Part shown: piece after piece, positions 17,469-34,959 of the stretch | Numbering within the stretch: position 1 is the stretch's first letter | How the letters are laid out: every line of letters begins with the position of its first letter | Assembly: GCA_024277855.1 (NCBI GenBank) | Contig: JAJRUJ010000070.1 | Location: 1-34,959, forward strand | DNA: 34,959 bases | Direction of reading: 5' to 3' | From: Candidatus Zixiibacteriota bacterium | GTDB taxonomy: Bacteria > Zixibacteria > MSB-5A5 > WJJR01 > JAJRUJ01 | Made by a program: the position numbers and the translations under genes | The notes under the pieces: model-generated | What the model saw: only the letters and a program-made list of their open reading frames with translations | Database searches by the model: none | Told to the model about the DNA's origin: nothing

Positions 17469-17828
17469 GGGGGCGACTGGCTTCGACGGAGTCACTGAGG
17501 GGAAGTTTGCCTGTCGAGGTGCCCACTTTGCCTCGTAAAACAAGTGGGAACAAATCTAAACGCAGACGATTATTCGTACGCGTTGGCTGCCTAAAGCAGG
17601 CAGTCCCGTGGCCATCGGGGCCGCCTCTCGTCCCGATGAACCGCGTCGCTAAGAGGGGCTAGCCGACAGCCACGTTCGGGGGCCGAAGCGAAACTTACAC
17701 CGAACTAGTCCGACTCGCAGCCTGTCGACCGGCGTCGTTTCGGGCGAAGATTAAAAGATCGACTATACAGGTAGACGGCTTTTCCGACGGACTTTCGGAC
17801 GGGGGTTCGATTCCCCCCGCCTCCACCA
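17469..17828 (+). ncRNA. ssrA: transfer-messenger RNA (tmRNA)
   Basis: Rescues ribosomes stalled on broken mRNAs, tagging the nascent chain for proteolysis. The 5' end GGGGGCGACTGGCTTCGACG is the classic tmRNA start; its first seven bases pair with CGCCTCC just before the encoded ACCA (one G-U pair). The T arm GGGGGTTCGATTCCCCC is perfect. The tag frame runs from GCA at 17562 and encodes ADDYSYALAA, ending at TAA 17592-17594; the C-terminal ALAA is the protease-recognition end. Regions 3' of the tag are rich in pairing segments, consistent with the usual pseudoknots. The one-piece order shows this is not a permuted tmRNA. About 360 nucleotides is a normal length. CCA is encoded. A terminator follows directly. 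Confidence 0.97.
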
Positions 17829-29542: not shown

Positions 29543-31795
29543 TTATTTCATCAGAACCATCTTCTTCGTATCGTAGAGATTACCCGACCGCAAGCGATAG
29601 AAATACATCCCGCTGGCTACGCCGTCACCTTGAGCATTTGTGCCGTCCCACCACACCGAGTGTCGACCGGCCTCAGTGTAGGCATCAAGCAGCACATTCA
29701 CCCGCTGACCGGTCACGTTGTAAACCTCCAGCGTAGTGTGGGCCGGTTCGGACAGGTTGAATTCAATGGTGGTCGAGGCATTGAACGGGTTGGGGTGGTT
29801 GGGCAACAGTTCGAACCGATCCGGCACAGCGGTGACGCGGGCAATACCGCCATTAGAAAGGTTTTGGCAGGATACGACCGATATCGGCAACGCCTCGAGA
29901 TGCAGTCCCCCTGCCGATCCGGTCGATGTCGGCGTGACCTGGCTGGCGCAGGTTTCGGTAAAGGCGATGTCTTCGACCCAGATGTCACCCCAAACCTCAT
30001 TATATTCTGCATTGGTAAACTCGAGACAACCGTACCATTTCCAGTCCGCCGAAGCCGTGATGTCATAAATGGTAATCAGCGCCTCGGTCGAGTCGGCATT
30101 GACCTCGACGGCGACGCCCGGCTGCAAGTCAGTTCCACGAACACAATAATCGTCGTTCGACCAGGGAACGGCGAAGGTCAATATATCGAGATCGACGTTG
30201 GACTTGACGTTAAACGAGGTACTCTCACGGTATTCGCAGTTCTCGCCCCACTTATCGCACGTCCCATTGACCCCGGGCAGGTTGATCCAGATCAGCCCAT
30301 CCTCGGTTATGATTGATCCGGGGTCGAAAACTGTCTGGACATCGGCAAACTGGTAATCGGTATAGAGGCGGACTTCATCGTAGGTTCGCACCCAGGTATC
30401 GTAGTCACCGTCACAGCCGCTATTGATTGCCTCGAGCAGATAATCGGTGGTCACTCCGGGAGAGACGTTATCCAGGTGAAAAACCAGATCGCCGATTTTG
30501 CGCAGGTCCTCCGACGGGGGGATCGAGATCGTGCCGTAGGTTTCAAGTTCACCGTACCGATACCCGCCGATTGTGCATTCCTGATCGTCTCCGGTCATCG
30601 GCCAATACAGATCGTCCACGGAGATCAAATCGTCGAAGTACAAATCGGCGCCGAGATCATCGATATATTTCATCGCGATCCGGAAATTGGTTACCGTGAA
30701 ATTGTTCTGTAAATACAGAGGCACGGTGAATTCGCAGAGGTTTTCATTGCTCCAGACGGCCTCACCAATATCGAATGTCGCCAGGTACGGCGGCACAGTC
30801 ACCGAGCCGGTGCCATAGGTCACGTTGGCAAATTCTTCGAGCTTCTGCTCACAATCAAGCGCCCAGACGTCGTGGGTAGAATCCGGCGCTTCGAACCAGA
30901 CCGCACCCGTGATGTCGTCAACCGGGGAAATAATTTTGAAAGTGATATAGTAAAGCTCAGCTCCGACTTCATCGGAGAGACCGAAGCCATTGTCGTTTAC
31001 GCCATAGACCGTCAGACAACTTGCTTCACACCCGCCATACATGATGGCTCCATCGGCTCGTGGCGCCTGATCAAAGAACGGATTGGCAAGGGCCAAAACA
31101 GCTGGATCATACGCCAATCGATGAATAAACGCTTTAAGCTCATAATCGTTGTTGCAAGTGACCGTGACCGTGACGCTATCACCGATCAATCCAACTTCAG
31201 CGGATATATCAAAGGCGATGTTGACCGGTTCAATGTAGACACTGCCGTCGGTCAGCGACAGCGGATCGCGGTTGCAGTCGTCGTGGCCCAGATAGATCTC
31301 GGGGGCATCCGGATCGTCCGCCGGCCAGACCACATCGGCGGTGAAATCCTGCAGCTCCTTACAATGCGTGTTTACCCAAATATAGAGGAATACATCGTTA
31401 ATATCCGGAGTATAGCACGTGCCCCCGTTGGAATGTTCGACGGTAAGGGTCCTGGTCGAGTCCTCCCAGCGGGGCATGTCGCTGTCGAGACCGAGCGGAC
31501 AGGCGGCCAACACGACACTATCATAGTCGACTTCCGGGGGAATAATAAAGCTAAGTTTATAATTATAGATACAGTCGTCGCTGCCGATATAGACGGGGAT
31601 GGCGACCGCTTCCCCCAGTTTGGCCTGGACTTGGCCGATAATACCATCGTCATTGGGAGTTGCACAATTCCCCAGTGGGTTGAGTTCCGGGGGAGCGCCT
31701 TTGCCGATCGCAGCCGCACTGGACGCCATACCCACCAGAAGACAGACTGCCATGCAGACGATGATTCCAAGACGAACGCATTTATCAATTCCCAT
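29543..31795 (-). CDS. secreted multi-domain protein with cohesin-like repeats and C-terminal FlgD-like/T9SS-type sorting domain
   Basis: 750 residues; AAGGAGG four bases before the ATG at 31795. A signal peptide (LGIIVCMAVCLLVGMASSAA) is followed by four beta-rich segments of ~130-150 residues. Each has a calcium/cohesin-like pattern, e.g. SVTVTVTCNNDYELKAFIHR then LAYDPAVLALANP, and CEFTVPLYLQNNFTVTNFRI. Many cysteines suggest disulfides outside the cell. The last ~90 residues carry FELLPNHPNPFNASTTIEFN, then VYNVTGQRVNVLL and VASGMYFYRLRSG, ending KKMVLMK: the FlgD Ig-like/T9SS type A sorting pattern. Such domains guide export or surface attachment in FCB-group bacteria. Its own terminator is shared with the methyltransferase gene. 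Ligand unknown. Confidence 0.85.
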   Translation of the reverse strand: MGIDKCVRLGIIVCMAVCLLVGMASSAAAIGKGAPPELNPLGNCATPNDDGIIGQVQAKLGEAVAIPVYIGSDDCIYNYKLSFIIPPEVDYDSVVLAACPLGLDSDMPRWEDSTRTLTVEHSNGGTCYTPDINDVFLYIWVNTHCKELQDFTADVVWPADDPDAPEIYLGHDDCNRDPLSLTDGSVYIEPVNIAFDISAEVGLIGDSVTVTVTCNNDYELKAFIHRLAYDPAVLALANPFFDQAPRADGAIMYGGCEASCLTVYGVNDNGFGLSDEVGAELYYITFKIISPVDDITGAVWFEAPDSTHDVWALDCEQKLEEFANVTYGTGSVTVPPYLATFDIGEAVWSNENLCEFTVPLYLQNNFTVTNFRIAMKYIDDLGADLYFDDLISVDDLYWPMTGDDQECTIGGYRYGELETYGTISIPPSEDLRKIGDLVFHLDNVSPGVTTDYLLEAINSGCDGDYDTWVRTYDEVRLYTDYQFADVQTVFDPGSIITEDGLIWINLPGVNGTCDKWGENCEYRESTSFNVKSNVDLDILTFAVPWSNDDYCVRGTDLQPGVAVEVNADSTEALITIYDITASADWKWYGCLEFTNAEYNEVWGDIWVEDIAFTETCASQVTPTSTGSAGGLHLEALPISVVSCQNLSNGGIARVTAVPDRFELLPNHPNPFNASTTIEFNLSEPAHTTLEVYNVTGQRVNVLLDAYTEAGRHSVWWDGTNAQGDGVASGMYFYRLRSGNLYDTKKMVLMK

Positions 31796-32317: not shown

Positions 32318-33706
32318 TTACTTTTTGTAATGAGAGATAAAATCCTCGACTTCGGGGATGCCGCCCTGGTAGATCAGGTAACCGTTGTGCGGTTCGCGTT
32401 CGGTAATTTCACCGGCGATGGGCGTCAACATGATTTCACGCACGCGCTCAGGGTCGGTTGTCTGGCCAAGGACCCAGCCGAGTTTGACATAGGCAACCTC
32501 CGGGAGCATATTCGCCGCCGGGACGACACCTATTTCCATAATATCCCGTCCGGTGTCATAGACATACATCTGTACATACCCCCAGAGGGTCTGCACCGTC
32601 ATATAGATTACCACACCTTTGGCCACCGCCCGCTTGAGCGCAGGGTACAGCGGTTTGTTGACATGCCCCAGGCCGGTACCGGCGATGACGATCCCTTTAT
32701 AACCGTTATCGGTAAGGGAATCGATGATATCGGGCCGCATATTCGGGTAGTAATAGACGATGGAAACCATCTCGTCGAACGCGGTATTTATTTTTACCTC
32801 CCGGTCATCGCGTCGATGCCGATAGTCCTCGCGGAGGTAATTGAATTCTTCACGCGAGACCGTAGCCAACGGAATGTCGCCGATAGTGCGAAAGGTGGAG
32901 CGGTACGACGAATGCATCTTCCGCACCCGGGTACCCCGGTGCAGAAGACCGTATTGATCGGAAGTCGGGCCAAACATACAAACCATCACCTCGGCAATCT
33001 TCCCCTCGGCAGCGGTGCGGGTGGCGTTGATCAAATTGATTGCGGCATCGGAAGACGGCCGGTCGGACGAGCGTTGAGAGCCAACCATGACGATCGGCAC
33101 CGGCGTTCCCTGGACCATAAACGACAACGCGGCCGCGGTGTGATGCATCGTGTCGGTACCGTGGCCAACGACAATTCCGTCAATACCGTTAGCGATTTCC
33201 CGGCCGATGGCCTCAGCAGTGCCCGCCCATTGCTCCGGTCCCATGTTTTCGGAAAACACACCGTACAGCTTTTCGGTATCCAGGTTGCAGATATCGGCAA
33301 GTTCAGGTACTGAGCCGTACAGTTCGCCCGGTGAGAATGCGGGAATCACTGCACCGGTCCGATAATCAAGCCGGCTGGCGATGGTTCCTCCGGTGCCCAG
33401 GAGTTTGACATTCGGCTTGCGCGGGTCGGTCGGGAACTCTTTTTCGGGGATTTTATAGTGCGCTTCCTTGCGCCCATGCTCGACAATATCGGTAATAGTG
33501 CCGACGACAACGCCGACGTTATACCCGTTGTGCAGTTTCAGAACAATATGATCTTTATCGGCGGTCTCGGCACGGGGCAGGACGATGCCGGTAAACTCGC
33601 CACGGGAGGATTGCACGACAACCTCGCTCCAGACCTGAACATCAAAATTTTTCAATGTGTCCAGAGCCGCGCCGCGATACCCCTTGTATTTACTATCAGT
33701 CGACAT
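32318..33706 (-). CDS. gatD: Glu-tRNA(Gln) amidotransferase subunit D (archaeal-type)
   Basis: Asparaginase-like subunit that releases ammonia for amidation of Glu-tRNA(Gln) by GatE. 462 residues. An N-terminal ~90-residue beta domain (VWSEVVVQSSRGEFTGIVLP) precedes the L-asparaginase type I domain. Catalytic residues are visible: Thr108 in LLGTGGTIASRLDYRTGAV and Thr184-Asp185 in VGHGTDTMHHT; the lysine in GTRVRKMHSSYRSTF is in the expected place. YRTGAV and the extra N-terminal domain separate GatD from ordinary asparaginases. The start is two bases after the gatE stop, so they form one operon. GatD and GatE are described as archaeal; here they sit in a bacterial context. Confidence 0.95.
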   Translation of the reverse strand: MSTDSKYKGYRGAALDTLKNFDVQVWSEVVVQSSRGEFTGIVLPRAETADKDHIVLKLHNGYNVGVVVGTITDIVEHGRKEAHYKIPEKEFPTDPRKPNVKLLGTGGTIASRLDYRTGAVIPAFSPGELYGSVPELADICNLDTEKLYGVFSENMGPEQWAGTAEAIGREIANGIDGIVVGHGTDTMHHTAAALSFMVQGTPVPIVMVGSQRSSDRPSSDAAINLINATRTAAEGKIAEVMVCMFGPTSDQYGLLHRGTRVRKMHSSYRSTFRTIGDIPLATVSREEFNYLREDYRHRRDDREVKINTAFDEMVSIVYYYPNMRPDIIDSLTDNGYKGIVIAGTGLGHVNKPLYPALKRAVAKGVVIYMTVQTLWGYVQMYVYDTGRDIMEIGVVPAANMLPEVAYVKLGWVLGQTTDPERVREIMLTPIAGEITEREPHNGYLIYQGGIPEVEDFISHYKK

Positions 33707-33708
33707 GT

Positions 33709-34959
33709 TTATGATTCCGTCCGGTTTGCCGGGAGTTGTGTTTTCTGCTCGACTCCGATTTCACGAATCCGGGCCTGCAACATCTCGGCGACCCGTCCGG
33801 CGCTGATTCGTCCCCGAAGATTTTCCATAACCAACCCCATCAGGTGCCGTTCACGTTTTGCCTGGTCAAGCCCTTCAAGATCGACATCGGCCAACGCCCG
33901 TTCAATCACGTATTCCGCCTCGGTGTCACTAACCGGCATCAGGTGTCTGCTTTCCAGCGCGCAACGGGGATTGGTCCAGCGCCCGGCCAGCATACCCTCG
34001 GTAATTAACTCGACCATGGCAAAATCGAACTTACGATCGAGAACCTCTCGGACGATCGCGACAATTTCATCCTCATCCAGGGCAACCCCGTGTTCGTTTC
34101 GCCGGGTGAGCGCGGGAAGTGTACTTACCAGATAAACCGCCGCCTTCGCCGGTGGCGCGCCGGCCTCGTCACAGAGGCGGTCGAACAGTTTGGCCCGGGG
34201 TGATCGGGACAAATGCAGCGCCAGCGACGACGGTATACCCAGGTTGCGATACCGTTGTTCCCGTTCCCACGGAGGTTCGGGCAACCGGGCGCGCGCCGAC
34301 GCAATCAATTCTTCGGTTACCGCCAGTGGTGGGAGATCGGTATCCGGGTACATTCGCTCGGGACCGGGAAGGATTCGTTCGAAGCCATTAGTCCCGTCGG
34401 AAAGCGCCTGTCGCGTTTCGGCGGGCACGCCGATCGTCGCTTCGCGAGCGCGGATTTCGATCTCTTCGGCGGCACGCTCGGCATCAGTCGCCGGTCCCCA
34501 GGTGATGACCAGGGTATCGTCGTCCCGGGAACCGGTCGAACGGCGCAACCGTGCCCACTCGCCGGAGAGAAGATTATGACCCAATGCGTCCGAATGAATC
34601 AGGTTGGGGAATCTGTCCAGACAGGCAATCACCCGCACCCGGTCGATAATCTCCTTGGCGAATACCGTTTCCGGCTGGGTCGGCCGGCTGAGGATCCCTT
34701 TGAATCTCCGCAGGACAACTGCTTTTACCCGCCAACCGGCGTTCAATGCCTGACGAATCGGTTCGAATGAAGTATGCTTGATATCTTCGGTGACATCGCG
34801 CGAAACAGCGGCAAAAGTTTCTTCGGTAATACCGCGTTTATGCAATTCGTCTCGAATTGCCAGCAACGAACGCTGCCGGACGGCCTCGTTATGCACCAGC
34901 CGCGGAATCATCCGGATTTTGGGGACACCCTTGATCTCGATGCGGCAACCGCCGGTGAC
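33709..34959 (-). CDS. gatE: Glu-tRNA(Gln) amidotransferase subunit E (partial, 5' end beyond window)
   Basis: Kinase/transamidase subunit of the GatDE heterodimer: phosphorylates Glu on tRNA(Gln) and transfers ammonia to form Gln-tRNA(Gln). The frame is open to the window edge (VTGGCRIEIKGVPKIR before MIPRLVHNEAVRQ), so the ATG at 34911 is internal; about 416 of the usual ~620 residues are seen. Family blocks include GGCRIEIKGVPKI from the GatB/GatE catalytic core, the GatE-specific AspRS-like (GAD) insertion around KEIIDRVRVIACLDRFPNLI and ERAAEEIEIRAREATIGVPA, then GPERMYPDTDLPPLAVTEEL and the C-terminal helical/YqeY-like tail ending LMGLVMENLRGRISAGRVAE. The GAD insertion is the established difference from bacterial GatB. 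gatD follows immediately. Confidence 0.95.
   Translation of the reverse strand, partial: VTGGCRIEIKGVPKIRMIPRLVHNEAVRQRSLLAIRDELHKRGITEETFAAVSRDVTEDIKHTSFEPIRQALNAGWRVKAVVLRRFKGILSRPTQPETVFAKEIIDRVRVIACLDRFPNLIHSDALGHNLLSGEWARLRRSTGSRDDDTLVITWGPATDAERAAEEIEIRAREATIGVPAETRQALSDGTNGFERILPGPERMYPDTDLPPLAVTEELIASARARLPEPPWEREQRYRNLGIPSSLALHLSRSPRAKLFDRLCDEAGAPPAKAAVYLVSTLPALTRRNEHGVALDEDEIVAIVREVLDRKFDFAMVELITEGMLAGRWTNPRCALESRHLMPVSDTEAEYVIERALADVDLEGLDQAKRERHLMGLVMENLRGRISAGRVAEMLQARIREIGVEQKTQLPANRTES

Follow-up and report, generated by a model that had tools for sequence, protein, structure and literature searches.

A GatDE-type amidotransferase of a broad bacterial clade in a Candidatus Zixiibacteriota genome that also encodes glutaminyl-tRNA synthetase

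Genes for both subunits of a GatDE-type tRNA-dependent amidotransferase lie at one end of a contig from a Candidatus Zixiibacteriota genome and are genuinely bacterial: the pair belongs to a bacterial clade that is probably old, and the host of the pair also encodes glutaminyl-tRNA synthetase (GlnRS) and the two large subunits of GatCAB. The window analysed here is that whole contig (C58, 34959 bases), part of a 3.07 Mb assembly in 129 contigs with an estimated bin contamination of 2.9%. A 2022 review places GatDE now in archaea only, reports no archaeon with GlnRS, and ties the archaeal absence of GlnRS to a co-evolution of archaeal tRNAGln and GatDE (PMC9499178); a second source likewise limits GatDE to archaea (PMC8007984). 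An enzyme confined to archaea and to GlnRS-less hosts is a statement about distribution, not a property of the enzyme, and it does not describe the present case. No paper describing bacterial GatDE was found in the open-access literature searched; since automated annotation that uses TIGR02153 can be expected to have named genes of this kind, the gap is probably one of description and explanation, not of detection.

Within the window, gatE is directly upstream of gatD on the same strand (Table 1). The contig end cuts gatE, leaving 416 residues and removing the first ~230, and the missing part was not found anywhere else in the assembly. Most relatives with enough sequence have a full-length gatE directly upstream of gatD. 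The 'intact two-gene operon' originally proposed therefore stands for gatD and for the tight junction between the genes, but not for gatE, which runs off the contig here and is intact in relatives.

Table 1. Positions of the gatE-gatD pair, of catalytic codons in gatD and of two other genes in the window
Feature	Position	Strand	Description	Basis
gatD	32318..33706	minus	amidase subunit GatD, complete, 462 aa	TIGR02153, NF003217, GatD_N and asparaginase N and C domains
gatE/gatD junction	33707..33708	minus	2-nt gap: stop TAA, AC, ATG	read from sequence
gatE, 3' two thirds	33709..34959	minus	end of catalytic core, AspRS-like GAD insertion, tail domains of helical and YqeY type	
GatD Thr108 codon	33383..33385	minus	catalytic	invariant in alignment
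GatD Thr184 and Asp185 codons	33152..33157	minus	Thr184 33155-33157, Asp185 33152-33154	invariant in alignment
GatD Lys263 codon	32918..32920	minus		invariant in alignment
Next gene after gatD	29543..31795	minus	secreted protein (750 aa); C-terminal sorting tail of type IX style	PF18962, PF13860
tmRNA gene	17469..17828	plus	tag peptide ADDYSYALAA	

In profile searches the gatD product scores 526.4 bits against TIGR02153 (cut-off 324; E 4e-158) and 522 bits against NF003217; it contains the GatD_N domain (PF18195, 52.8 bits against a cut-off of 25.7) together with both asparaginase domains, and matches archaeal GatD 2d6f_A with an E-value of 2e-124. Alignment of bacterial with archaeal GatD shows Thr108, Thr184, Asp185 and Lys263 to be invariant. 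This confirms the three catalytic residues named in the original prediction; their codons and that of the lysine are in Table 1. A stand-alone type I asparaginase was ruled out by the GatD_N domain, by the adjoining gatE and by the higher score of the GatD model (526, against 399 for TIGR00519).

The gatE fragment aligns to positions 233-627 of 630 in NF003107 and to residues 235-630 of 1zq1_C (E 1e-46), which, like the E-value of gatD, leaves no room for a chance match; short of its N-terminal third, it reaches 242.9 bits against a full-length GatE cut-off of 456, and the full-length GatE (644 aa) of the sister locus L009 reaches 527.6 bits against the same cut-off. The GAD domain (PF02938) scores 22.0 in the window GatE, just below its cut-off of 23.4. 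For the predicted structure of the fragment (pLDDT 85.5, pTM 0.49), Foldseek ranks archaeal GatE (1zq1_C, 2d6f) ahead of GatB and then AspRS (~140 columns), the last as expected with a GAD insertion. Domain score and predicted fold together support the AspRS-type GAD insertion first noticed from the sequence, and the high overall rmsd of the model probably reflects an uncertain arrangement of domains. The catalytic motifs GLEIHQQL and LEEDA are present and invariant in bacterial relatives, and in the window the corresponding region lies beyond the contig end. A GatCAB identity, which calls for an amidase-signature GatA and a GatB lacking the GAD insertion, was rejected for the pair, given that gatA and gatB sit on another contig (C49). 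By the sequence tests applicable, the family is assigned to GatDE.

The pair, taken together with its bacterial relatives, is like archaeal GatDE (1zq1, Pyrococcus abyssi; 2d6f, Methanothermobacter thermautotrophicus) in its two subunits, full-length similarity, GatD_N domain and Thr/Thr/Asp/Lys amidase site, and in the GatB-like core motifs, GAD insertion and YqeY-type tail of GatE; it is unlike archaeal GatDE in its bacterial host, its separate clade, the GlnRS alongside it and the U1-A72 pair of the accompanying tRNAGln(CUG). With bacterial GatCAB (3ip4, 3al0) it shares the reaction class and the catalytic core common to GatE and GatB, and the host has GatA and GatB as well, but its GatD is asparaginase-like where GatA belongs to the amidase-signature family, its GatE carries the AspRS-type insertion, and there is no third subunit. 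Across 80 loci no conserved third gene was found beside gatED; neighbours were scattered, with glnA in three.

GatDE is common in the phylum and well beyond it. A GatD match occurs in 60 of 84 Candidatus Zixiibacteriota genomes at 90% completeness or more and in 57 of 79 high-quality genomes, five single-contig genomes (G015, G016, G054, G069, G070) among them. At least 580 confirmed stretches encode GatD relatives, with identities of 74-83% that lean high because the best 80 were used. They come from MAGs labelled KSB1, Zixiibacteriota, Krumholzibacteriota, Ignavibacteria, Bacteroidota, Caldithrix, Chlorobiaceae, Latescibacteria, Aminicenantes, Fermentibacteria, Kapabacteria, Neomarinimicrobiota, Cloacimonetes, Acidobacteria and Chloroflexia. 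No GatD was found on viral contigs, and on plasmids no match covered 80% of the query, the best being annotated as ordinary asparaginases. A tree of GatD and GatE combined places the window beside a Candidatus Zixiibacteriota genome with full support, and very long branches part the bacterial clade from the two sequences that served as archaeal references in the tree and the identity comparison. Closest to the pair is a genome from the host's own family within the Zixiibacteriota, at 82% GatD identity. Median identity between the sampled bacteria is 80% for GatD and 56% for GatE, against 47-49% and ~34%, respectively, to the archaeal proteins; the two archaeal enzymes are 57% (GatD) and 52% (GatE) identical, similar between subunits. 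GatD is thus unusually conserved across phyla relative to its operon partner, a gap that may come in part from sampling, the loci having been picked by GatD similarity. In these sequences, the bacterial clade spans FCB phyla, Acidobacteria and Aminicenantes and lies far from archaeal GatDE.

The prediction had left two explanations open, acquisition by this lineage or an under-described bacterial clade, and the distribution favours the clade: recent acquisition by one lineage finds no support in a pair that is common across the phylum and others and groups with relatives of its host. That an archaeal contig end was joined to a bacterial one by an assembly or binning error is hardly credible. 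gatE does lie right at the contig end, and the bin carries its 2.9% of estimated contamination, but GC and GC3 of both genes agree with the rest of the contig, the nearest relative is from the same family, single-contig genomes carry GatD, and the pair is sister only to bacterial sequences, with ~49% identity to archaeal GatD. A search of the same genome for gatA, gatB and glnS recovered all three. GlnRS (726 bits, cut-off 425.8) and a bacterial-type GluRS are on contig C31, GatA (592.7 bits) and GatB (552 bits) are neighbours on C49, with a gene resembling glutamine synthetase beside them, AsnRS (477.7 bits) is on C11, and both tRNAGln isoacceptors are present. The host thus combines GlnRS, the two large GatCAB subunits and GatDE; this contradicts the lack of GlnRS that was suggested as one of two consequences of GatDE, the other being a special role for the enzyme, and of the two suggested arrangements, instead of or beside GatCAB, it favours the second. 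Cells that combine direct synthetases with a tRNA-dependent amidotransferase have precedents in Deinococcus, Thermus and Bdellovibrio (PMC4206432), but their amidotransferase is GatCAB; the present one is GatDE, and in many genomes that have it GatB was not detected.

Across the 84 phylum genomes, GatD and GlnRS occur together in 57, GatD without a clear GlnRS in 3 (G080, G073 and G074, the last with a GlnRS fragment), GlnRS alone in 10 and neither in 14; G077 and G085 have identical GlnRS coordinates. The association gives a Fisher p of 3e-7 uncorrected for kinship, and a kinship-corrected test, with only 5 supported pairs, points in the same direction and is not significant; GatD and GlnRS may have been lost together in smaller genomes. 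GatB is not detectable in about half of the phylum genomes with GatDE. In a set drawn from many phyla, 40 of 50 genomes with GatDE have GlnRS, and 9 of the remaining 10 have GatB; the tenth also lacks a GluRS match and is therefore judged incomplete. Half of the 50 have GlnRS and no GatB, so that GatDE is the only amidotransferase detected in them. With absence calls for GlnRS, GatB and GatD resting on draft MAGs, GlnRS or GatB is present in nearly every assessable genome with GatDE, which is thus never clearly the sole route. Several lineages with GlnRS have neither GatD nor GatB.

In a comparison of the closely related G082 and G083, dN/dS is 0.023 for gatD, 0.099 for gatE, 0.033 for glnS and 0.052 for gltX; the low values for gatD and gatE, similar to those of glnS and gltX, speak against a relic. 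gltX, glnS, gatE and gatD lie within ~11 kb in both genomes. In the single-contig genome G070, gatE, a second gltX and a tRNAGln(CUG) gene are on the same strand within ~5 kb (L147:3382-8513), G071 has gatE, gltX and tRNAGln(CUG) within 7 kb, and gatED adjoins glnS at locus L039. No gatED neighbourhood is conserved across phyla in the 80 loci. As to the finer layout in G070, 107 bp separate the second gltX from the tRNAGln(CUG) gene downstream of it; gatE follows ~1.6 kb further on, and gatD is elsewhere. Both gltX and tRNAGln(CUG) are present twice in this genome, each gltX copy adjoining a tRNAGln(CUG) copy. A tRNAGln(CUG) gene is found within ~2.5 kb of gltX in G005-G007, G056-G059, G066-G068, G070 and G071 (loci L186-L188, L233-L236, L242-L246), in genomes with and without GlnRS, and beside glnS in G029, G047, G048, G061 and G062.

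In tRNA genes from ~30 phylum genomes, the first pair of tRNAGln(CUG) is U1-A72, not the archaeal A1-U72, and this one type occurs with and without GlnRS and with and without GatDE. Since it is the same type as in GlnRS-less sister genomes, which would have to charge it via GluRS, GluRS may still recognise it here; in Acidithiobacillus ferrooxidans, GluRS1 puts glutamate on tRNAGln(CUG) and not on tRNAGln(UUG) (PMC3927822). The equivalent of GluRS Arg358 was uninformative about discrimination, since all GluRS sequences that include the site have Arg there, those of GlnRS-less genomes among them. An isoacceptor split (UUG charged by GlnRS, CUG by GluRS and GatDE) was rejected as a trait of GatDE genomes, as the CUG tRNA type is the same regardless and the split explains no pattern of presence and absence, though the split itself may exist. 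A broad bacterial GatDE clade accompanied by GlnRS and a U1-A72 tRNAGln breaks the archaea-only rule and weakens the co-evolution argument, touches on whether GatDE is older than the divergence of bacteria and archaea, and poses the question of why a cell with GlnRS, and often GatCAB, retains a second amidotransferase under strong selection.

We consider it probable (roughly 60%) that GatDE is an active Glu-tRNAGln amidotransferase which, alongside GlnRS, works on tRNAGln that GluRS has mischarged. We infer its activity, tRNA substrate and clean-up role from neighbourhoods with Glu and Gln charging genes and from the retained catalytic residues, which point to amidation of Glu-tRNAGln. GatD would free ammonia from glutamine at the Thr/Thr/Asp/Lys site, and GatE, in an ATP-dependent step, would use it to amidate glutamate on tRNAGln. 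Because GlnRS is present and would make Gln-tRNAGln directly, GatDE would not replace it; what the cell would most simply need is an enzyme to convert the Glu-tRNAGln that GluRS would still make, most likely on tRNAGln(CUG), and so to keep glutamate out of glutamine codons. Against such a role, 26 genomes with GatDE and GlnRS also have GatB, which could do the same job, the GlnRS lineages without GatD and GatB indicate that clean-up is not needed universally, and neither the kinship-corrected association nor conservation of neighbourhood across phyla lends it weight. We tentatively put forward, as a possible narrower form, that bacterial GatDE is a dedicated repair enzyme of GlnRS users, correcting Glu-tRNAGln (mainly CUG) by amidation in place of hydrolytic editing, with both charging routes drawing on one tRNA pool.

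It is rather doubtful that the enzyme instead amidates another substrate (a different Glu- or Asp-tRNA, some special pool of tRNA, or an acceptor outside translation), with its co-occurrence with GlnRS incidental. Its retention despite GlnRS and often GatCAB would fit, as would the divergence of GatE relative to GatD and to archaeal GatE and the lack in bacterial tRNAGln(CUG) of the A1-U72 pair that archaeal GatDE reads (PMC9499178); yet relatives keep the catalytic motifs and tail domain of archaeal GatE, the recurrent proximity of gltX, glnS or tRNAGln(CUG) suggests a function in Glu/Gln charging, and AsnRS, found in almost all phylum genomes, leaves no obvious need for Asp-tRNAAsn as a substrate. 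Strong purifying selection on GatDE, and the presence of GatDE without GlnRS in G080 and G073, could also be read as making it a leading or equal source of Gln-tRNAGln, used in place of GlnRS, which would be minor or conditional. This is unlikely: GlnRS is intact, selection on its gene is just as strong (glnS dN/dS 0.033), no well-assembled genome examined depends on GatDE alone, the clear GlnRS-less ones having GatB, and 14 of the 17 phylum genomes without a clear GlnRS lack GatDE just where it would be most needed. Equally small is the chance that GatDE is a redundant leftover from an ancestral pathway of indirect charging, kept for now while one lineage after another loses it; GatD losses are patchy (at least 5-8 changes on the tree, many in smaller genomes), but the dN/dS values of gatD and gatE, near-constant catalytic residues and retention over many phyla run against redundancy.

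Elsewhere among the charging enzymes of the phylum, G080 and G081 (L253, L254), both without GlnRS, have a GluRS very distant from the rest, on a branch of 1.9 changes per column, which was possibly acquired. An AsnRS paralogue of 330-400 aa without the N-terminal anticodon-binding part accompanies the true AsnRS (G000:C79:5964-6935, and alike in other genomes); it is presumably similar to the AsnRS-related asparagine synthetase of archaea.
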